Source of the DNA: a virus
IMG/VR virus record: IMGVR_UViG_3300030104_004797
Location: 1 to 34,612 of that record
Direction: 5' to 3' (one strand)
DNA length: 34,612 nt
Shown here: one piece after another, positions 7,502 through 16,796 of the stretch
Position numbering within the stretch: the stretch's first letter is position 1
How the letters are laid out: every line of letters starts with the position of its first letter
The notes under the pieces: generated by a model
The model's database searches: none
The model's input: only the letters and a program-made list of their open reading frames with translations
What the model was told of the DNA's origin: nothing
Made by a program: the position numbers and the translations under genes

Positions 7502-8202
7502 AGGTTGGAAGCCTGTTCTCAGGGATTGGTGGCCTCGAGTTGGGGTTAGAGCGCGCAGGTATGCAGGTGGTTTGGCAAGTCGAGAGCGACCCGTTCTGTA
7601 TCAAAGTGTTGGAGAAGCATTGGCCCAGTGTTCGGAGGTTTGCAGATGTTAAGGATGTCGGAAAAGAGGAACTTGAAGCCTGCGACCTCATTTGCGGGGG
7701 ATTTCCATGCCAGCCAGTGTCAAACGCTGGGGCGAAGCTCGCGCAGGACGACGAAAGGTGGCTGTGGCCGGAGTTTGCCAGAATTATTGGCGAGCTACGA
7801 CCACGCTACGCGCTCATGGAAAACGTCGCAGGGCTCCTTGTTCGAGGGATGGGAGACGTTCTTGGAGACTTGGCCGCGCTCGGGTACGATGCGGAGTGGC
7901 AAGTGCTACCGGCAGCAGCCTTTGGTGCGCGACATCGGAGAGATCGCGCATTCATTTTGGCCTACTCCGACAGCTACCGATTGGAAGGGAGGCTCGGATC
8001 TACCCAGGGGCGACGGCATGAGCCGGTCTTCCGATCTGCGCCATCTGATCCGCGCGCTCTACGGTGGGACATCACCGCATCCCCGTTTTTACGAGCAACT
8101 GATGGGCTTCCCAACCGGGTGGACAGAATTAAATCGCTAGGCAACGCAGTCGTGCCACAGGTGTCCGAATGGATCGGCAAGCGCATCATGGAGGCTCGAT
8201 GA
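7498..8202 (+). CDS. C5-cytosine DNA methyltransferase (early-operon copy)
   Basis: 234 residues from a GTG overlapping the upstream TGA. Motifs in order: I (FSGIGGLELGLERAG, 7-21), IV with the catalytic Cys (GGFPCQPVS, Cys71), VI (MENVAG), VIII (GARHRRDR) and X (SLGNAVVPQV). The region between VIII and X, where the target-recognition domain lies, is only about 50 residues, so this is a minimal enzyme. Probable role: methylating phage DNA to evade host restriction. Bases 7646-8140 also hold a second well-formed coding frame, discussed separately. Confidence 0.85.
   Translation: MKVGSLFSGIGGLELGLERAGMQVVWQVESDPFCIKVLEKHWPSVRRFADVKDVGKEELEACDLICGGFPCQPVSNAGAKLAQDDERWLWPEFARIIGELRPRYALMENVAGLLVRGMGDVLGDLAALGYDAEWQVLPAAAFGARHRRDRAFILAYSDSYRLEGRLGSTQGRRHEPVFRSAPSDPRALRWDITASPFLRATDGLPNRVDRIKSLGNAVVPQVSEWIGKRIMEAR
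7646..8140 (+). CDS. Overlapping-frame protein inside the methyltransferase gene
   Basis: 164 residues in the +1 frame relative to the methyltransferase. ATG 7646 has a strong GGAGG site (7634-7638) 7 bases upstream. The frame lacks stops for 495 bases and contains segments I recognise from free-standing phage and metagenome proteins: AGDFHASQC, ATRSWKTSQGSLFEGWE, ETWPRSGTMRSG, FWPTPTATDWKGG and EQLMGFPTGWTEL. Each aligns base for base with a methyltransferase motif in the other frame (IV, VI, the post-VI helix, VIII, pre-X). This suggests a protein family overprinted on C5 methyltransferases. Function unknown. It could also be that database relatives are mis-framed methyltransferases. Confidence 0.5.
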   Translation: MLRMSEKRNLKPATSFAGDFHASQCQTLGRSSRRTTKGGCGRSLPELLASYDHATRSWKTSQGSLFEGWETFLETWPRSGTMRSGKCYRQQPLVRDIGEIAHSFWPTPTATDWKGGSDLPRGDGMSRSSDLRHLIRALYGGTSPHPRFYEQLMGFPTGWTELNR

Positions 8203-8247
8203 GCGCACATATATATATAGACGCAGATCGGGGCATTGCCCGGACAG

Positions 8248-8274
8248 AAAGTGTGCCACAAGTGTGCCACATAC
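8248..8274 (+). repeat. Left arm-type repeat of attP
   Basis: A 27-base stretch containing two tandem copies of AGTGTGCCACA (8250-8260 and 8261-8271). It is identical to 8507-8533 and in the same orientation. The two copies are in different reading frames relative to the open frame here, so protein coding cannot explain their identity. Together they bracket the tRNA-like core, as arm sites for the integrase N-terminal domain do. Confidence 0.8.
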
Positions 8275-8339
8275 CGACTATGTTGATGCCACGAGGCGCA
8301 GTAAAGCCAACAGATAGGCCAGATAGGGCACAGGACACG

Positions 8340-8388
8340 CACCTGCTTTGGGAGCAGGGGGTCCCCAGTTCGAATCTGGGCGCCCCGA
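8340..8388 (+). other. attP: attP core: 3' half of tRNA-Pro(TGG)
   Basis: The sequence folds as the 3' part of a tRNA. The anticodon stem is CCTGC/GCAGG (8342-8346, 8354-8358) with loop TTTGGGA, anticodon TGG. The T-arm CCCAG-TTCGAAT-CTGGG spans 8364-8380, and the acceptor strand CGCCCCG is at 8381-8387 with discriminator A8388. No matching 5' half and no encoded CCA are present. Tyrosine integrases commonly recombine in tRNA 3' ends, so this is the phage attachment core. The host attB is predicted to be a tRNA-Pro(TGG) gene with this 3' half. A T-run follows at 8394-8399. Confidence 0.88.
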
Positions 8389-8506
8389 CTGAGTTTTTTG
8401 AGAAGGATGAAGGTGGAAAGCCCTGTAATGGCTTAGTTGGGATGGGTAAGTCGGGGTTAGCGTGGGTTTCGGTGTTGCGGGACGAGTCTGGCGGTTACAC
8501 CTTTGC

Positions 8507-8533
8507 AAAGTGTGCCACAAGTGTGCCACATAC
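8507..8533 (+). repeat. Right arm-type repeat of attP
   Basis: Second identical copy of the 27-base double AGTGTGCCACA repeat (units at 8509-8519 and 8520-8530), just upstream of the preferred integrase start. The stretch 8203-8555 between methyltransferase and integrase is therefore explained as attP: left arm, tRNA core, right arm. An ATATATATATA tract sits at about 8208-8218. Confidence 0.8.
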
Positions 8534-8555
8534 ACTCCAAAGCTCGAGAATTGCT

Positions 8556-9779
8556 GTGCCGTCTGTACCGTATAGCTTCAAAGCGATTGAAGCCTTGCCG
8601 TTACCGTTGCCGCCAAAACGCGCTGAAATGTGGAGCGTCGGGGGTCAAAGGAGTCTGTACGTGCGCGTGTACAGCACTGGCGTTAAGGCTTGGGTGTTTC
8701 GCTACAAGGTCAGAGGTCGCGAGCGAAAGATGAACATTGGCGAGTTCCCAGGTATGGGGCTTCGCGAGGCCAGAGATTGCTGCACCGTACTTCGGGCACA
8801 GCTTCGTGAGGGCATAGACCCAGCCGGTGACGTTAGGGAGCGCGAGGGTACGTTTGGCGAGCTCTGCGCGGTGTACCTGCAAGCAGTCGAGCGCGGAAGC
8901 CAGAAGCTCGCAGACTCCACCCTGGCCGAACGACGTCGGATCTATGAGTCGGCTGACCTTGACCCCATACGCAGGACACCGCCTGCCGACCTCACGGCAG
9001 AAGATGTCGCCCGAGTTTTAGATCGGTTTGAGAAGCGCGACTCGATGGTGATGCTAAACAGGGCACAGCAGGCGATCTCTGCGGTGTTTGCTTGGGCAGT
9101 GGCCCGCAGGCGCTATGGGCTGACGTCGAACCCTGTGCGCGCGCTACCACGGCGCACAAAGGAATACAGCAAGCGTCGCTATCTGTCGGAGTCAGAGATC
9201 GCTGTGCTATGGCGCGACCTTGACCCAGACGGTCGACCGGCGTCGATCAGCCCAACCACACCACTGATTCGCGCTGTGCTGCGTCTGACGCTGTTAACTG
9301 GGCAACGTCCCGGCGAAGTGCGTCGCATCGAGCGGGGACATATCACGGGATCGACGTGGACGATGCCGCCAGGCTATCGCAAAGGCGTCGGTGGTAGAGC
9401 TTCAGACGAACACCGAGTCCACCTCAACGAGCTGGCGTTAATTGAGCTGGACGACATCAAGGCGCGGGGTCGGTTTATGTTTCCGGCTTATACAGAGCAA
9501 CTCAAGCCGATTTCGCACCAAGCGATATCGAGGCCGGTTCGACGGATATGGCAGCGTCTAGGGATGCAGCCGTTCACGCCACACGACTTAAGACGGACAG
9601 CGATGACGCACTGGACCGACTTAGGTCTGGTCAGAGATTGGACGGTTGGCGAGAAGATGGTGGGGCACCAGCTCCCAAAGATACGGCAGACTTACGATCG
9701 ATCAGAGCAATGGGACGAGCGGGTCGAAGCGTTCGATGCTTGGGGTCGGAAGGTCGCGGAAATAGTAGGGCCGAGGTGA
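8556..9779 (+). CDS. int: Tyrosine integrase (P4-type)
   Basis: 407 residues from GTG 8556. The N-terminus (FKAIEALPLPLPPKRAEMW) matches the DUF4102-type arm-binding domain of P4-like integrases. A core-binding helical domain follows, then the catalytic set: Arg in TGQRPGEV (about 251), HDLRR (His343, Arg346), His371 in GHQLP and the Tyr380 nucleophile in TYDRS. The frame is open upstream to 8169, but that part runs through attP, so starts at 8199 or 8442 are less likely. It integrates the phage at tRNA-Pro. Confidence 0.9.
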   Translation: MPSVPYSFKAIEALPLPLPPKRAEMWSVGGQRSLYVRVYSTGVKAWVFRYKVRGRERKMNIGEFPGMGLREARDCCTVLRAQLREGIDPAGDVREREGTFGELCAVYLQAVERGSQKLADSTLAERRRIYESADLDPIRRTPPADLTAEDVARVLDRFEKRDSMVMLNRAQQAISAVFAWAVARRRYGLTSNPVRALPRRTKEYSKRRYLSESEIAVLWRDLDPDGRPASISPTTPLIRAVLRLTLLTGQRPGEVRRIERGHITGSTWTMPPGYRKGVGGRASDEHRVHLNELALIELDDIKARGRFMFPAYTEQLKPISHQAISRPVRRIWQRLGMQPFTPHDLRRTAMTHWTDLGLVRDWTVGEKMVGHQLPKIRQTYDRSEQWDERVEAFDAWGRKVAEIVGPR

Positions 9780-9848
9780 TGGTTTTTTTTACACATACAG
9801 TTGATCGATCAGCCAGTTAGGAACACTAAAAACGCAATAGAGGACGAG

Positions 9849-10730
9849 ATGGCGAAGCTACCGTATTTCAAGTTCTACCCAAGCGATTTCATGGGCTCGG
9901 GTAAGGTCGCAATGATGAGCCCGTGCGAGGTGGGCATATACATCAAGCTGCTCTGCGTATGCTGGCAGGAGGGCTCGCTACCCGACGACCCTGTGCGGCT
10001 GGGCAGGCTAACCGGAGCAACCGTCGAGGAGATGCAGTCGGCTTGGCCCTCAGTCCGCGATTGCTTCGAGGTACACCAAGGTCGACTGACGCACTCAAGG
10101 CTGGAAAAAGAGCGCGACGCAGCCGCCAACCGAAGCACGAAAGCCAAACGAGCTGCTGCTGCGAGGTATGCTCCAAGCAATGCTCCAAGCAATGCCCCAA
10201 GCACTGCGGGGAGCACTGCTCAGGGGGGTGCTCAAACCCTGCCATACTCAGAAGCTCATAGTTCAGAAGCTCAAAAGACAGAAGATAAAAAAACAACGGG
10301 CGCTGACGCGCCGAATAAGGTTGTTACCTACACAAAAGGTGAACTGCTGGCAGAGGCTGAGTCTGTGCTCGGCTTGGGCAAGCTGAATAACACCGACAAG
10401 CTGGCTAACGCTCGCATCTTGAACAGTTGGCTCTACTCCGGTGAAAGCCGAACCGCCGAGGATGTGTACGCAGCGATTCACGGCGCTGCGATGATGCGGG
10501 ACAAGGATTTGATCGGCTGGGACTCCGCAGCTCCCGGCACTCCGATGACGCTGAAAGCTCTAAACGGAGCGATGACCCTGACCTATCTCGGCGATGGCAA
10601 AGTCCAGCAGACACTCTGGTTCGCCGCCATCGATCATTTCAGAAAGCACGACCCACTCAACCGTCCGTCGAAAGCTAGGGGCACTACGCTCGCTTCGATC
10701 GGAGAACTGATCGGCCAGGTGTCCGCATGA
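9849..10730 (+). CDS. DUF1376-type replication initiator
   Basis: 293 residues from ATG 9849, with AGAGG 5 bases upstream; an earlier ATT/ATG reading to 9801 lacks a site. Residues 1-95 (LPYFKFYPSDFMGSGKVAMM, GIYIKLLCVCWQ) match the DUF1376/YdaU winged-helix domain of phage replication proteins. A low-complexity linker follows (about 108-150, repeated APSN, then SEA/KKT), and then a helical C-terminal domain. The linker DNA contains tandem repeats and an A-rich tract that look like an internal origin. The protein likely binds the origin and recruits host helicase; no separate helicase-loader gene is seen. Confidence 0.7.
   Translation: MAKLPYFKFYPSDFMGSGKVAMMSPCEVGIYIKLLCVCWQEGSLPDDPVRLGRLTGATVEEMQSAWPSVRDCFEVHQGRLTHSRLEKERDAAANRSTKAKRAAAARYAPSNAPSNAPSTAGSTAQGGAQTLPYSEAHSSEAQKTEDKKTTGADAPNKVVTYTKGELLAEAESVLGLGKLNNTDKLANARILNSWLYSGESRTAEDVYAAIHGAAMMRDKDLIGWDSAAPGTPMTLKALNGAMTLTYLGDGKVQQTLWFAAIDHFRKHDPLNRPSKARGTTLASIGELIGQVSA
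10169..10296 (+). other. Candidate replication origin inside the initiator gene
   Basis: Three tandem 12-base units close to TGCTCCAAGCAA lie at 10169-10204, the last one degenerate. They are followed by two copies of TCAGAAGCTCA (10248-10258, 10263-10273) and then a purine/A-rich tract with a run of seven A (about 10272-10296). Iterons plus an AT-rich unwinding element within the coding region for an initiator linker is the arrangement of the lambda origin in gene O. This role is inferred from layout. Confidence 0.5.
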
Positions 10731-10900
10731 TGATGCGGATCATTTTTGACTTAGTGGTCGTGGTAGTGATTGTCGCAGTGTTGGCAGGCGTGATCCTGTA
10801 CTTCGGGGGGCGAACGGTTTTGACGCTTTGCGAGAGCCTCAAGAGGCCCAGAGCGGACGCGGGTTCGAGTCCCGCCGCCTCCATCGAGCACCAACGTTAA
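10727..10900 (+). CDS. Small membrane protein overlapping the tmRNA-like element
   Basis: 57 residues starting at one of three consecutive ATGs; the first overlaps the upstream TGA (ATGA). Residues 5-28 are a strong membrane span (IIFDLVVVVVIVAVLAGVIL). The C-terminal half (from GGRTVLTLCESLK on) is read from bases that form the tRNA-like structure at 10806-10883. It shows the GSSPAAS signature typical of T-arms read as protein. The membrane part looks real; the tail may be a by-product of the RNA. Confidence 0.45.
   Translation: MMMRIIFDLVVVVVIVAVLAGVILYFGGRTVLTLCESLKRPRADAGSSPAASIEHQR
10806..10883 (+). ncRNA. Mini-tmRNA-like tRNA-like domain (putative)
   Basis: The 5' acceptor strand GGGGGCG (10806-10812) pairs with CGCCTCC (10876-10882); the third pair is G.U, and A10883 is in the discriminator place. 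AACGGTTTTGAC (10813-10824) matches the D-loop region of tmRNA 5' ends. A hairpin follows: GCTTTG (10825-10830) with CAGAGC (10849-10854), enclosing GCCT/AGGC. The linker GGAC leads into a canonical T-arm, GCGGG-TTCGAGT-CCCGC (10859-10875). This is the tRNA-like domain of tmRNA without tag frame or pseudoknots. G3.U70 plus A73 is the alanyl-tRNA synthetase identity set. CCA is not encoded. It could be a functional mimic or a relic. Confidence 0.6.
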
Positions 10901-10913
10901 AAGAGGAACGACT

Positions 10914-11264
10914 ATGACAGAGACAATGCTTTTTAGTGTGCTATGGCGCAGTGCTGTTTTACGGCATGGACGCGCTGAGTGGGGAAGCACTTTGCGTTTA
11001 GTCTTGCTTGTAATTGGTGGAGTGGTGCTGGATGAAAAAGGCACCGTAGAGATATCAATGCAAAGAATCGCCCAGTACTCTGGACTGACACCTGACACCG
11101 TTCAGAGGCGGCTGGCTAAGGCCTTTGCGAGCGGCACGGTTCGCGGCTGGTTAACGCGCAGGAAAATGAGAAATCAATACGGGCATCGATCTTACGTCTA
11201 CCAGTGCCACATCCCTGCGGACATAGACTTACGCCGCCTGTGGTTCGAGGATGATGGGTTTTAG
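10914..11264 (+). CDS. Winged-helix replication/regulatory protein
   Basis: 116 residues from ATG 10914 with AGAGGA 7 bases upstream. The N-terminal helix region is followed by an HTH, VEISMQRIAQYSGLTPDTVQRRL (key: MQRIAQYSGLTPDTV), and a basic wing (RGWLTRRKMRNQYGHRSYVY). The pattern resembles wHTH domains of phage replication proteins that test for a start block and then convert a host response. Its position after the DUF1376 initiator suggests the second replication protein or a late regulator; the exact role is unclear. Confidence 0.55.
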   Translation: MTETMLFSVLWRSAVLRHGRAEWGSTLRLVLLVIGGVVLDEKGTVEISMQRIAQYSGLTPDTVQRRLAKAFASGTVRGWLTRRKMRNQYGHRSYVYQCHIPADIDLRRLWFEDDGF

Positions 11265-11281
11265 AATTGACGCATAATGCT

Positions 11282-11300
11282 ATTGACTTGACCTGTCAAT
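11282..11300. promoter_or_regulatory. Inverted repeat ahead of the packaging genes
   Basis: ATTGAC (11282-11287) and GTCAAT (11295-11300) are separated by 7 bases that contain another TTGAC. The three TTGAC boxes (11267, 11284, 11288) look like -35 elements, but I find no convincing -10 at normal spacing. It may be an operator or activator-dependent late promoter in the 84-base gap before terS. Confidence 0.35.
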
Positions 11301-11348
11301 CAACCGACCACAACTTTGGACGGTCTAGCGGGAACCTAACGAGAGCAC

Positions 11349-11720
11349 ATGGCCCGACCGTCAGCTCACACGCCAGAAGTAGCCGCCGAGATATGCGACC
11401 GCATAGCCGGTGGAGAGTCGCTGCGTCGAATATGCGAGGACGAGCATCTGCCCTCGATGTCGACTGTCTGCTTATGGGTGGTCGATAACCGAGAGCAGTT
11501 TTCGGAGCAGTACGCGAGAGCGCGACGAGCGCAGGGCACGTTGATGGCTGACCAGATCGCGGAGATCGCTGACACCGGCTCAGGCGACACAGCAAGGGAT
11601 CGACTGCGAGTCGACACCCGCAAATGGTATCTGAGCAAGGTGTTGCCGAAGCTCTACGGCGATAAGGTTGAGGTCGAGCACTCGGGCACCCCAGAAATCG
11701 TTGTCCGTGTCATCGATTAA
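11349..11720 (+). CDS. terS: Terminase small subunit
   Basis: 123 residues. The N-terminal HTH (VAAEICDRIAGGESLRRICE) recognises the packaging site. The central helix (QYARARRAQGTLMADQIAEI) and the C-terminal segment RVDTRKWYLSKVLPKLYGDK are the hallmark of the phage terminase small subunit family with an RxxTRKW motif. It forms a ring that recruits the large subunit to phage DNA. Its stop shares one base with the TerL ATG (TAATG). Confidence 0.85.
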   Translation: MARPSAHTPEVAAEICDRIAGGESLRRICEDEHLPSMSTVCLWVVDNREQFSEQYARARRAQGTLMADQIAEIADTGSGDTARDRLRVDTRKWYLSKVLPKLYGDKVEVEHSGTPEIVVRVID

Positions 11721-12955
11721 TGCCGGAGTTCGAGCTACAGGGGCTCCAGGGCGAGATATATCGCGACCCGTCACGCTTCCGCGTAGTGGTAGCCGGTCGT
11801 CGCTCAGGCAAGACGTTTGGCGAGTGCCTGGAGCTGTACACCTGTGCAGCGAACAAGACCGGCGCTCGATGCTGGTATATCGCACCGACCTATCGCATGG
11901 CGCGGGACATTGCATGGCCGACCCTCAAGTCGATCGTGGACCGTGGACACTTGGCAAAGGCTCCCAATGAGAGCCAGCTACGCATGGAACTGACGAACGG
12001 CGCTGAGATCGCGCTTAAAGGCGCAGACGATCCCGACCGGCTTCGTGGTCCAGGGCTCGACTTCGTTGCGCTCGACGAGTTCGCATGGATCAACCCAGCG
12101 GCATGGGACGTCCTGCGCCCAGCGTTATCCGATCGACAGGGCAGGGCTCTATTCACGACGACGCCTGCGGGCTTTAACTGGGCTTACGACACGTTCCTAA
12201 AAGGGCAGGACGGCGGGGAGGACGGTTGGCGATCCTGGCAGTTCACGACGGCACAGGCAGGCATTGTCGCAGGGGACGAGGTTGATGCGGCAAAGCGCGA
12301 GCTGGACCCTCGGATATTCCGGCAGGAGTATGAGGCCAGCTTCGAGACGCTACAGGGTCAGGTATACAGCAACTTCGACCGTGAGCTGAACGTCTCGGCT
12401 GACATCAAGGACACAGGCGGCGAGATCCTTATCGGCCAGGACTTCAACGTCAACCCGATGGCGTCGGTCGTCGCTGTCCGAGCTGGTGACGAGTGCCACA
12501 TCATCGACGCGCTTGAGGTTCCATCCTCAAACACCGAGGAAATCGCTGCCGAGTACGCTACTAGGTATGCCGGTCGGAAGGTCGTCGTCTGTCCCGATCC
12601 GTCGGGTGTCCAGCGTCGGAGCTCGGCTCCAGTAGGGCAGACCGACTTTACGATACTGAAGCGCGCTGGGTTTGATGTACGATCGCCAAAGGCTGCACCG
12701 CCGATCGTCGACCGAGTCAACAACGTTCAGGCCATGCTACTCAACGGCGAAGGCCGAAGACGTCTCAAGATCCATCCTCGGGCTCATGCGCTGATTCGCT
12801 CGCTTGAGGGGCTGACCTACAAAGATGGGACCAGCCAGCCAGACAAGACGCTGGGCCTCGACCACTTGGTCGATGCGCTCGGCTATCTGCTATGGCAGGA
12901 GTTCAACACGCTGCGGGGGGCTAAACCAACTACCGAACGATTCCGAGTAATCTGA
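11720..12955 (+). CDS. terL: Terminase large subunit
   Basis: 411 residues. The ATPase has Walker A GRRSGKT (about 27-33), Walker B VALDEFAW (about 115-122) and coupling motif TTTPAG (about 146-151). The RNase H-like nuclease has GQDFNVNP (about 239-246), CPDPSG (about 292-297) and DHLVDALGY (about 380-388), supplying the metal-binding acidic residues. It packages DNA into the prohead and cuts it. The length is typical for a compact siphovirus TerL. Confidence 0.95.
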   Translation: MPEFELQGLQGEIYRDPSRFRVVVAGRRSGKTFGECLELYTCAANKTGARCWYIAPTYRMARDIAWPTLKSIVDRGHLAKAPNESQLRMELTNGAEIALKGADDPDRLRGPGLDFVALDEFAWINPAAWDVLRPALSDRQGRALFTTTPAGFNWAYDTFLKGQDGGEDGWRSWQFTTAQAGIVAGDEVDAAKRELDPRIFRQEYEASFETLQGQVYSNFDRELNVSADIKDTGGEILIGQDFNVNPMASVVAVRAGDECHIIDALEVPSSNTEEIAAEYATRYAGRKVVVCPDPSGVQRRSSAPVGQTDFTILKRAGFDVRSPKAAPPIVDRVNNVQAMLLNGEGRRRLKIHPRAHALIRSLEGLTYKDGTSQPDKTLGLDHLVDALGYLLWQEFNTLRGAKPTTERFRVI

Positions 12956-12956
12956 T

Positions 12957-14420
12957 ATGCCGATCTCTAATGACCTAAAAGACGCCATCAAACACGCCGA
13001 GGGTGTGCGCTACATCAAGATCGATGGCGCAGGGTTTGGTAACGACCCGACCAACCCCGACTACCAGAGCGAGTCGTATGTCGACCAGATGCCCGACGTG
13101 TCTCTGTGCCGCGAGGTCTACGGTGGCACCAAGACGATGCGCGAGTGCGCTGAGACATATCTGCCCCAGGGAGTGCATGAGCACGACGACGAGTACAAAG
13201 AGCGTCTGAACCGCGCGACGTTGTATCCTGCGTTCGAGCGCACGGTCCACGGGCTGGTCGGTATGATCCTGCGGAAAGACCCGATGTTCGAGGAAGGTGC
13301 CCCGGACGTCGTACTTGAGGACGCCAAGAACGTCGACCTGGCCGGTCGGCCCTTGTCTGTGTTTGCTCGCGACCTGGCGATCGACGCGATGATCGACGGC
13401 CATGCGTGGGCGCTGGTCGAGTATCCTCGCATTACCGAGTACAACACGCCTGCCAGTTTAGCTGACGAGCGTGAGCGAGGACTCAGGCCGTACTGGTGCG
13501 CGATCAAGAAAGCTGACGCGCTGAACTGGCGCTACGAGATGCGTGACGGTCGCCCTGTGTTGACGATGTTTGTGTACCGCGAGTCGGTCGTCGAGCCTGT
13601 CGGTGCGTTCGGTGAGGAAGTGAAGGAACGTGTCCGAGTGCTAACGCCTGGCGCGTTTGAGGTGTGGGAGCGCGCCGACGGGCAAGGCCAAAGCCAGTGG
13701 ACGCTCATCGATGAGGGTGCGACGTCGCTTGGGTACATCCCGGTCGCGCCGTTCTATACGAACCGCACGGGGCACTTCGAGTCAAAGCCACCGCTGCTCG
13801 GGCTCGCATACGAGAACGTGAACCACTGGCAGACCCGCAGCGATAGGCAGTACGCGCTCAAATTTGCAGGCTCACCGTTTCCGGTGTTCAGTGGAGCAGA
13901 CCCGCAGAACGTCGAGTGGGGGATGTCCAGGGCTCTGTTCCTCCCGGACTCCGACGCCAACGCGCAGCTCCTCGAATCGTCTGGAGCGTCGCTGCAAGCC
14001 AGCCGCGAAGAACTACAAGACATAGAGGCGCGCATGGCTTCGCTCGGCCTCCAGATGCTCGTCCGCGAGACGCGAGCCGCCGAAACGGCCCAGGCCAAGC
14101 TGATTGATAAAGCCGAGTCAGACTCAGCCCTGTCGGTCATCTCTCGGGGGCTTGAAGGTTTTCTGAATGATCTACTGGAGATCCACGCGACGTATCGCAA
14201 CATCGAGCCAGCTCGGTTGACCGTAAACCGCGATTTCAACAGTCAGCAAATGGAGCCAAGTCTGATCCGCGAGATCCGGGGCATGGTCGCAGACGGCCAG
14301 CTCCCGATGGAGGATATGTGGTCGCTGCTACAGGCGGGCGAGCTATTGCCGCCGACGTTTGATGTTGAACTGGCACAGGAGCGGTTGCTGGGCGACGCTC
14401 CCGCACTGCTCGGGGGATAG
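12957..14420 (+). CDS. Portal protein (DUF4055-like)
   Basis: 487 residues, starting one base after the TerL stop. The N-terminal part (VSLCREVYGGTKTMRECAE, AETYLPQG) and the middle segment FERTVHGLVGMILRKDPMF are typical of DUF4055-type portals. An alpha-helical wing/stem region and a C-terminal crown with SLIREIRGMVADGQLPMEDM follow. The position between TerL and MuF genes supports the portal ring role, the channel for DNA at the capsid vertex. Confidence 0.85.
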   Translation: MPISNDLKDAIKHAEGVRYIKIDGAGFGNDPTNPDYQSESYVDQMPDVSLCREVYGGTKTMRECAETYLPQGVHEHDDEYKERLNRATLYPAFERTVHGLVGMILRKDPMFEEGAPDVVLEDAKNVDLAGRPLSVFARDLAIDAMIDGHAWALVEYPRITEYNTPASLADERERGLRPYWCAIKKADALNWRYEMRDGRPVLTMFVYRESVVEPVGAFGEEVKERVRVLTPGAFEVWERADGQGQSQWTLIDEGATSLGYIPVAPFYTNRTGHFESKPPLLGLAYENVNHWQTRSDRQYALKFAGSPFPVFSGADPQNVEWGMSRALFLPDSDANAQLLESSGASLQASREELQDIEARMASLGLQMLVRETRAAETAQAKLIDKAESDSALSVISRGLEGFLNDLLEIHATYRNIEPARLTVNRDFNSQQMEPSLIREIRGMVADGQLPMEDMWSLLQAGELLPPTFDVELAQERLLGDAPALLGG

Positions 14421-14423
14421 AGC

Positions 14424-14819
14424 GTGTCGGTTGAGATCAAGGACAAGATGCCAGCGAGCATAAGCGGACTTGTACTCGAGCACATCGAAGCGCGTCTGTA
14501 TTTGGTGCCGTCTTGGTGTCATAAGCTCTATGCGCGCTATGACGCCGAACTCAAGGACGTGGCGACTATCCTGGGCAAGCCTGAGTACCGAGAGGCGCTG
14601 CTGACGTTCGGGCCTCGGATTGTGGACGGCCTCAACGGAAACGAACTCGATCTCGTCATTGTTCACGAACTCCTGCATCTGCACCAAGAGATGGCGCGCG
14701 ACGTGTTTTACGAAGCCCTGGAGTTCATCCCCGAGGGACCGTTCCGTGAGACATTTCGTAACCGCTATGACTACGCGAATGAGGGCGCTGTGTGCGACCT
14801 AACGCGGGCGGTCGCGTGA
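14424..14819 (+). CDS. Small zinc metallopeptidase-like protein (HELLH)
   Basis: 131 residues from GTG 14424. The zincin motif HELLH lies at residues 81-85 in a hydrophobic context (DLVIVHELLHLHQ). A third ligand may be Glu in YANEGAVCDL near the end. The fold appears minimal. A peptidase between portal and MuF could act in head maturation, but head proteases are usually not of this type; a cell-wall or host-target role after ejection is also possible. It is distinct from the zincin domain at the MuF C-terminus. Confidence 0.65.
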   Translation: MSVEIKDKMPASISGLVLEHIEARLYLVPSWCHKLYARYDAELKDVATILGKPEYREALLTFGPRIVDGLNGNELDLVIVHELLHLHQEMARDVFYEALEFIPEGPFRETFRNRYDYANEGAVCDLTRAVA

Positions 14820-15010
14820 TGAGCTGGCTCTTGTATATCCTGGGCTGCGTCACAGCGCATATCGCTAACAGAGCGACCAGCGTCTCAACCCGCATCAATC
14901 TCCACCAAGCGACAAATGCGATGCTGGTGATCGTGTGGCCGGTTGTCGCGTCTTATATCCTGTTCGACGCGGTGTGGAACACGGTCGCCAACTGGCAGAA
15001 CCGTGGCTGA
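14819..15010 (+). CDS. Small membrane protein in the head operon
   Basis: 63 residues from ATG 14819, which shares a base with the upstream TGA. Two hydrophobic segments are visible: WLLYILGCVTAHIAN and AMLVIVWPVVASYILFDAV. It overlaps the MuF start by 8 bases. It has no recognised family. A membrane protein between two metallopeptidase-encoding genes may help deliver or restrain them. Confidence 0.5.
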   Translation: MSWLLYILGCVTAHIANRATSVSTRINLHQATNAMLVIVWPVVASYILFDAVWNTVANWQNRG

Positions 15011-16796
15011 AGATCCGACCGCCATCGCGATCCGCAACCTGGTCACGTTGCGGCGACTGTCGAACGGCCTCGCCAAAGAGATGCGCTCTGAGGTTAGGGG
15101 CTTAATCGACGAGTACGTCTCACTGATCGCAAAGCTAGACCCGACGGCAGTCGTTCGCGACTCGTACCGACGAGCGCGAGTCGAAAAGGTGCTAAAGGAG
15201 ATCAATAGCTTAAACGCTGAAAGATATCCGCAGATCAGACGAGTGTTGGAAACCACCACCGCGCAGATTGGGGCGCAGCAGGCTGAGTGGGCGACCAACT
15301 CATTGCAACGCACTATCGGCTCGGTCAGGGTGTCCACTAAAGGTGGGCTCGGGGTGCCGTACTTTCGCAGCATAATGAAGACCGACCCGTTCGACGGCGA
15401 CACGCTCAAGATGTGGGTCAAGCGGCACGAAGTAGCGACCGTCAACGCTGTGCGCCAACAGATCCAGCTCGGGATGGCTCAGTCTGAGACGTTGGGCGAC
15501 ATTGTAAGGCGCATCAGAGGGCGTTCGGCAGGCGGTGGACGGTTCACGGGCGGCGTACTGGCTACGAGCACCAAGCAGGCCGAGGGGATCGCCAGAACCG
15601 CGATCACGCATATCGCCAACAGAGGCCACCTCGCCGCCTATGAGCAAAACGCAGACGTGCTCAAAGGGGTCGAGTTTACGGCCACGCTCGACAGCCGCAC
15701 CACAGAAATCTGCGCTCGATGGGACGGCACAGTCTTTAGCTTAGACGACCCGAAAAAACAGACGCCGCCGCTGCACTTCAACTGTCGGAGCGTATTGGTG
15801 CCCGCAGTGGATTGGGAAGGGCTCGGCATCGAACCGCCACCCGAAGGCAAGCGGGCAAGTGCTGGTGGGCCAGTGCCCAGCTCAACGACTTACGAGCAAT
15901 GGTTCGGCAACCAACCAGCACAGACGCAGAACTCAATCATCGGCGTCGCGCGAGCGGGTTTGTTTAGGGCTGGTCAGATCACATTCCGCGACATGATCGG
16001 CAAAGACAACCGGGTGCTGACACTGGCTGAGTTGCCAGCACTAAGGGCCCCCGTTCAATCACTAGCAACAACGCCAGTGTTTGAAACACGCAAAGAGGCC
16101 GAAGCGTGGGCAGTGGAGAATCTAGTCAAAGCACCAGAAAGATATGGCAAAGCAGCAATCTCTTATCGGGGGCTATCGATAGCATCGGCCAACGAGATTA
16201 ATGCGCGAGTTGCCAAAATGTTGGCCGCGACCCCGACGTCGCCGCGCTTAAATGCAATCAGAGCGCGCAGTATGCCGAAAAAACAATGGGCGGCACGTTA
16301 CGAAACAAACGGGCAAGTCTTGGAGATAAACACGGCATGGGCAAAAACGCCGGACGCAGTCACCGATTTTGTAAAAGCTGACCAAGTAGTAAACGAAAGG
16401 GCACGGGAAGCTGTAAAAGCGTTAAAGGGCAAGACTCTAACCGCGCGACAGGAGAGACTGCTCGCAAAAGCAGAAGAAGCTCTCAAATACAAACGAAGCT
16501 GGGTCGGTAACGACCTAGACGGTCTTATTACTCACGAAATGGGGCATCACATACACAACAACGGCGCGACAATTTTAGGAATTGAGCGCAAAGAGTTCAG
16601 GGAGCTGTGGACCGAAGCCACCAAACAAGCCGCGCAGGAAAAATATCGATACAACATATCGAGCTATGCGTTTAGGAATCCAATGGTAGTAAGGGAGGAA
16701 GTGTTTGCAGAATCGGTGGCGTTGTTCGTGCAAGGAAATACCGCCGACATCCCGCCCAAAATGTTGAGCCTATTAAATAGGATTTTTGAAACATGA
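15003..16796 (+). CDS. MuF minor head protein with C-terminal zincin toxin-like domain
   Basis: 597 residues from GTG 15003. The N-terminal helical part leads to the Phage_Mu_F domain (about 195-275): ARTAITHIANRGHLAAYE, CARWDGTVF (Cys237) and PPLHFNCRSVL. After about residue 300 the sequence becomes unlike head proteins. It is Lys/Ala-rich and ends in a metallopeptidase domain with HEMGHH at 511-516 and a downstream EEVFAES supplying a probable third ligand. MuF proteins with exchangeable C-terminal enzyme domains are known as polymorphic toxins of temperate phages. The bases from about 16060 are A-richer than the neighbours, suggesting a recently acquired domain. Confidence 0.8.
   Translation: MAEDPTAIAIRNLVTLRRLSNGLAKEMRSEVRGLIDEYVSLIAKLDPTAVVRDSYRRARVEKVLKEINSLNAERYPQIRRVLETTTAQIGAQQAEWATNSLQRTIGSVRVSTKGGLGVPYFRSIMKTDPFDGDTLKMWVKRHEVATVNAVRQQIQLGMAQSETLGDIVRRIRGRSAGGGRFTGGVLATSTKQAEGIARTAITHIANRGHLAAYEQNADVLKGVEFTATLDSRTTEICARWDGTVFSLDDPKKQTPPLHFNCRSVLVPAVDWEGLGIEPPPEGKRASAGGPVPSSTTYEQWFGNQPAQTQNSIIGVARAGLFRAGQITFRDMIGKDNRVLTLAELPALRAPVQSLATTPVFETRKEAEAWAVENLVKAPERYGKAAISYRGLSIASANEINARVAKMLAATPTSPRLNAIRARSMPKKQWAARYETNGQVLEINTAWAKTPDAVTDFVKADQVVNERAREAVKALKGKTLTARQERLLAKAEEALKYKRSWVGNDLDGLITHEMGHHIHNNGATILGIERKEFRELWTEATKQAAQEKYRYNISSYAFRNPMVVREEVFAESVALFVQGNTADIPPKMLSLLNRIFET

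Follow-up and report, generated by a model that had tools for sequence, protein, structure and literature searches.

A compact tmRNA without a tag reading frame in a temperate phage: member of a widespread RNA family and probable competitor of host trans-translation

What might a phage gain from a stretch of 78 bases that carries both ends of a tmRNA, the RNA that rescues stuck ribosomes, and nothing of the part that is translated? The DNA in question (the window, 34,612 nucleotides of an IMG/VR virus record) belongs to a temperate phage, with a tyrosine integrase of the Arm-DNA-bind_3 type (8169-9779, phrog_1) and terminase genes. A sequence-only reading had described positions 10806-10883 as a tmRNA-like tRNA domain lacking an mRNA part, and had offered four explanations: an alanylated decoy, an inhibitor of trans-translation, an RNA-processing signal or the deletion relic of a tmRNA gene. 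We suggest that the element is a phage gene for a tmRNA consisting of the tRNA-like domain only (TLD-only, hereafter mini-tmRNA), and that it probably inhibits host trans-translation by competition.

The assignment to tmRNA was confirmed with Infernal. A cmscan search of Rfam 15 gave a single match in the whole window, tmRNA (RF00023) at 10806-10883, scoring 66.5 bits (gathering score 47; E = 5.3e-24). The match runs from model position 1 to 374 and skips 302 of the 374 positions in the middle; pseudoknots PK1-PK4 were not found in the element. A reading frame for a tag is missing as well, together with its resume codon and stop: only 30 nt lie between GAC and GGAC, and no frame of this linker has a GCN codon followed by a stop. 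A covariance model built from 13 compact family sequences, with the window left out, matched the element at 68.9 bits (E = 4e-15, 0.88 Mb searched). On control loci (full-length tmRNAs, tmRNA fragments and tRNAs) the same model gave at most 42 bits, except for one further mini-tmRNA at 62, and on 297 genomes of one bacterial phylum nothing exceeded 43 bits, which is the range of full tmRNAs. ARAGORN reported no tRNA, no tmRNA and no tag at the element. A permuted tmRNA was considered and rejected, since the pieces stand in standard order and no match to the permuted model RF04321 above the gathering score was found in the window; that model matched 7 of 14 other phage loci.

All parts of the element lie on the plus strand. 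The 5' acceptor strand GGGGGCG (10806-10812) forms seven standard pairs with 10876-10882, and the 3' strand CGCCUCC (CGCCTCC in the DNA) together with the discriminator A73 (10883) occupies 10876-10883; the pair G3.U70 is G10808.U10880. A D-loop-like region, AACGGUUUUGA (10813-10823), was assigned by alignment to the tmRNA consensus, and the T-arm GCGGG-UUCGAGU-CCCGC (10859-10875) by Rfam alignment and folding. Thus the tRNA-like domain features of tmRNA that had been read from the sequence (acceptor with G3.U70, A73, D-loop-like region, T-arm) are all present. The D-stem and anticodon arm of an ordinary tRNA are missing, and in their place are the 11-nt unpaired D region and a 7-bp stem, P2, formed by CGCUUUG (10824-10830) and CAGAGCG (10849-10855). 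The earlier description of the junction as one hairpin needs correcting: the linker consists of the tmRNA stem P2, followed by an internal loop and, at its tip, a small hairpin, and this layout is found family-wide. In the window the inner loop CGAGA, the hairpin GCCU-CAAG-AGGC and a final C cover 10831-10848 (family consensus NAARNCCNCANGNGG), the 4-bp terminal hairpin that caps P2 being at 10836-10847. The folding energy of 10806-10883 is unremarkable (z = -1.28), so that the evidence for the element is homology and covariation, and it is on these that a chance fold was rejected.

Relatives were sought among viral contigs with a broad pattern in which acceptor, P2 and linker may be any sequence and the sole constraints are the D-loop-like GGNTTNGAC, GGAC and the core of the T-loop. 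At least 119 contigs matched; with identical copies discarded, they yielded at least 81 different compact sequences. A stricter pattern matched 21 viral contigs. Pattern scans and the covariance model made without the window together define a mostly unannotated family of compact RNAs in unrelated phages, with at least 85 distinct members, almost all of them 77-80 nt long. The survey favours sequences that contain the fixed words of the D-loop and the T-loop, and most contigs in it are fragments. Even shorter variants of 63-66 nt were seen in three records (L188 4085-4147, L192 5245-5309 and L193 324-389, the last on the minus strand), with P2 closed by a tiny loop, a T-stem one base shorter, G3.U70 and an encoded CCA.

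The D-loop varies in length among members, which led RNAalifold on a MAFFT alignment into a wrong register, and covariation was therefore counted on a model-guided alignment, controlled by sliding the structure and by shuffling. Of the 87 distinct rows in this alignment, two are ordinary tRNAs. Here 97.1% of the paired cells are base-paired, compared with 67% after shuffling and 40-52% for slid structures; the covariation score is 0.695 (control 0.130), and two-sided changes occur in 565 cells where 170 are expected. Both partners have changed in every one of the 8 P2 pairs, in acceptor pairs 4-7 and in two T-stem pairs; these are the compensatory changes in relatives that the earlier reading had proposed to look for. 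Because this alignment was fitted to the structure, P2 was also examined without any alignment, using the fixed GAC and GGAC as anchors: it averages 7.0 consecutive pairs, but 1.8 once its strands are exchanged between sequences.

The acceptor bases, which the broad pattern did not constrain, show a different regime at the end of the stem. Pairs 4-6 take nearly every standard pair in the family, while among the 85 distinct members found G1-C72 and G2-C71 are present in all, A73 likewise in all, and G3.U70 in 84. These positions make up the classical identity set of alanyl-tRNA synthetase (AlaRS), and their near-invariance is most naturally read as selection, either for alanylation or for some other factor that recognises these bases. 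The sole member with G3-C70 (L190 7289-7367, minus strand) has a T-stem region one base short and would not be expected to be an alanine acceptor. The tip of the molecule is also conserved: in most members CCNCANGNGG comes after an internal loop AARN. Two ideas about this inner part were rejected: a miniature frame for a tag of two amino acids, as linkers have no conserved resume or stop codon, and an origin of the hairpin in the first part of the coding domain of tmRNA, for which comparison with full-length viral tmRNAs gave no convincing match. At the 3' end, C74 directly follows A73 in nearly all members, mostly as ACNN. CCA is encoded in 13 of the 81 distinct compact sequences (ACCA), and the window has TCG after A73 (ATCG); as it is so rarely encoded, the CCA-adding enzyme of the host would be needed.

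In the window, the element lies between a gene for a DUF1376, primosomal-like replication protein (9801-10730, plus strand; PF07120, E 8.6e-12; phrog_9327) and a gene with a weak match to an O-like replication initiation protein (10914-11264, plus strand; phrog_391, E 9.8e-5). The whole element is overlapped by an ORF of 57 aa (10727-10900, plus strand) that encodes a predicted membrane helix and then reads through the RNA gene. Selection on its 3' half as protein is improbable: stop-free frames are kept inconsistently among members and the contexts differ, so that protein-level conservation was rejected, and what is conserved is the RNA, across reading frames and gene neighbourhoods. Other members are found between prohead protease and major capsid genes (in L200, L205 and L225, among others), before a DnaB-like helicase gene (L216), after an exonuclease gene (the L122 group), and within the tRNA arrays of the cultured Streptomyces phages LuckySocke, pSt2308, BRock and Shaeky, whose records show no annotation at the element; BLAST added copies in GiJojo and Alone3. 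That the neighbouring genes vary from phage to phage argues for action in trans. Searches with the 116-aa protein and with the DUF1376 protein found no relatives that share the window's own neighbourhood. The locus L143 (1-1113, compared with window 11265-15285) is 96% identical to the window from the terminase region on; its left arm is unrelated to that of the window and has no mini-tmRNA, with a sharp mosaic boundary at window 11265.

Phage tmRNAs reduced to the TLD are already known as a kind. The mycobacteriophage DS6A, the only phage named with such an RNA in PMC4131195 and PMC11915505, has a TLD-only tmRNA (tmRNA Website id 11587) that, by its description, resembles the window element in lacking a tag frame, in comprising little more than a TLD with both acceptor strands in standard order, and in being carried by a phage. 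DS6A infects Mycobacterium and integrates at tRNA-Lys (PMC10865867), whereas the probable attP of the window phage is at tRNA-Pro. With canonical one-piece tmRNA (ssrA, RF00023, including full-length phage copies) the element shares the acceptor with G3.U70 and A73, the D-loop-like region, the T-arm and P2, but it has 78 nt instead of about 350-400 and neither tag frame nor pseudoknots. In permuted two-piece tmRNAs (RF04321, RF01849-RF01851) the acceptor piece has the same T-arm; there, however, the pieces are reversed and the coding piece is present. The CDS-less tmRNAs of mitochondria and plastids (about 65 nt in Mallomonadaceae plastids), according to PMC11915505, have kept the tRNA-like domain and lost the mRNA part, as in the window. 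They are thought to aid rescue in the organelle, while the window element is a phage gene whose bacterial host presumably has a full tmRNA of its own.

How might such an RNA act? In the proposed mechanism, tRNA processing enzymes would cut an RNA of about 78 nt out of the phage transcript, the CCA-adding enzyme of the host would complete its 3' end, and host AlaRS would charge it with alanine by way of G1-C72, G2-C71, G3.U70 and A73. Through the D-loop-like region and the T-arm the mini-tmRNA would bind host SmpB and EF-Tu and, having neither tag frame nor resume codon, would compete with host tmRNA for SmpB and stalled ribosomes, so that trans-translation is dampened during infection, to the presumed benefit of the phage. 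An SmpB gene was found in none of 21 viral records, many of them fragments (the window and 20 with family members or related loci), which points to use of the SmpB of the host. An RNA like that of DS6A is reported to inhibit tmRNA strongly in E. coli whether or not it can be charged, with titration of SmpB as a possible cause (Mao et al. 2009, as cited in PMC4131195 and PMC11915505). On present sequence evidence, an alanylated decoy or inhibitor of trans-translation thus appears to be the best fit among the four explanations first offered.

Three observations sit less easily with competitive inhibition. For the inhibition that has been reported charging is dispensable, yet the alanine identity set hardly varies in the family, which hints that alanylation matters and raises the question of why the set is kept. 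CCA is encoded neither in the window nor in most relatives. Finally, in one phage record (L203, 123,582 b) a mini-tmRNA (46486-46567; L203 1769-1847) occurs alongside a full-length tmRNA (77588-77979, 94 bits), a combination not easily accounted for by simple inhibition; many tRNA-like matches are found in the same record.

Since the identity set is more invariant than a pure SmpB sponge needs, rescue without tagging is kept as a live rival, albeit a rather doubtful one. Here the alanylated mini-tmRNA, together with host SmpB, would accept the nascent chain and clear the stalled ribosome by hydrolysis or drop-off, releasing phage proteins untagged. Mitochondrial tmRNAs without a tag frame are nonetheless conserved with SmpB, and CDS-less plastid forms of about 65 nt exist (PMC11915505), which lends the idea some plausibility; with no stop or resume codon in the RNA, however, another factor would be needed for release, and the similar RNA treated in PMC4131195 is reported as an inhibitor and not as a rescuer. 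A broader form of the idea may be entertained tentatively, namely that these RNAs are a distinct and widespread class of phage regulatory RNA for which alanylation is required, the RNA with host SmpB taking nascent chains from stalled ribosomes untagged and the conserved inner purine loop and CNNG hairpin serving as a further functional module. If true, mini-tmRNAs would be agents of tag-less phage rescue rather than simple SmpB sponges.

It is unlikely that the RNA is instead a decoy for some other host factor directed at tRNA or tmRNA, such as AlaRS or an RNA-cleaving defence protein. Conservation of the alanine identity elements would agree with this, as would that of the purine-rich inner loop and CNNG-type hairpin, which are dispensable for a minimal TLD, but the retention of the tmRNA-specific D-loop region together with P2 points to SmpB, and no link to defence was found. 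A cis-acting signal, in which the tRNA-like fold would attract RNase P and the enzymes of tRNA 3' processing, so that a polycistronic phage mRNA is cleaved between two genes (tRNA punctuation), is less likely than a decoy or inhibitor and on the whole quite improbable. Its appeal lies in the position of the element, which in the window and at many loci fills a short gap between same-strand genes, and whose first G in the L122 group completes the stop codon of the upstream gene; any tRNA-like fold would do for this purpose, however, and the invariant G3.U70 and A73, the tmRNA-specific D-loop region, the varied flanking genes and the copies within tRNA arrays are left unexplained.

That the element is a functionless deletion relic or attachment-site debris is very improbable and was rejected: phages do often carry 3' fragments of ssrA or tRNA genes as attP, and the first T-arm scan gave many such fragments as well as full tmRNAs, but here both halves are present and paired, at least 85 distinct copies keep covarying stems with almost invariant G3.U70 and A73, and a separate 3' half of a tRNA-Pro(UGG)-like gene, from anticodon arm to acceptor end (8340-8389, plus strand, inside the N-terminal coding region of the integrase), is probably the attP core, judging from its sequence, and is unrelated to the mini-tmRNA. 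The earlier statement that the element is not a simple attachment-site fragment thus stands.

New with respect to the literature found are the window member, the size and spread of the family, the conserved inner hairpin and the unannotated copies in cultured Streptomyces phages. Where DS6A had been a lone curiosity, there is now a family with 85 or more distinct RNAs in unrelated phages, cultured Streptomyces phages included; a family of this size implies that phages may commonly control the trans-translation of their hosts, a proposition that can now be tested. ARAGORN names none of the mini-tmRNAs as such in the loci tested, and a published count of phage tmRNAs relied on ARAGORN (PMC9004378), so that the family has probably been undercounted. 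In BRock (L307 2475-3100) this program proposes a doubtful tmRNA of 626 nt with a tag, starting near the mini-tmRNA, which could mislead annotation.

Permuted tmRNAs, too, occur in phage records without tmRNA annotation. RF04321 matches of 82-137 bits were found in six (L309 and L312-L316) from the phages Pseudomonas PA_L9, Xanthomonas Rb1, Stenotrophomonas DLP_6, Alcaligenes QDWS595, Bordetella PHB04 and Synechococcus S-CRM01. In Tunturiibacter phage Tunturi_4 (L311 821-1582), an RF-1-domain gene, annotated as a peptide chain release factor domain and possibly ArfB-like, directly precedes an unannotated permuted tmRNA, which places two ribosome-rescue genes side by side in one phage.
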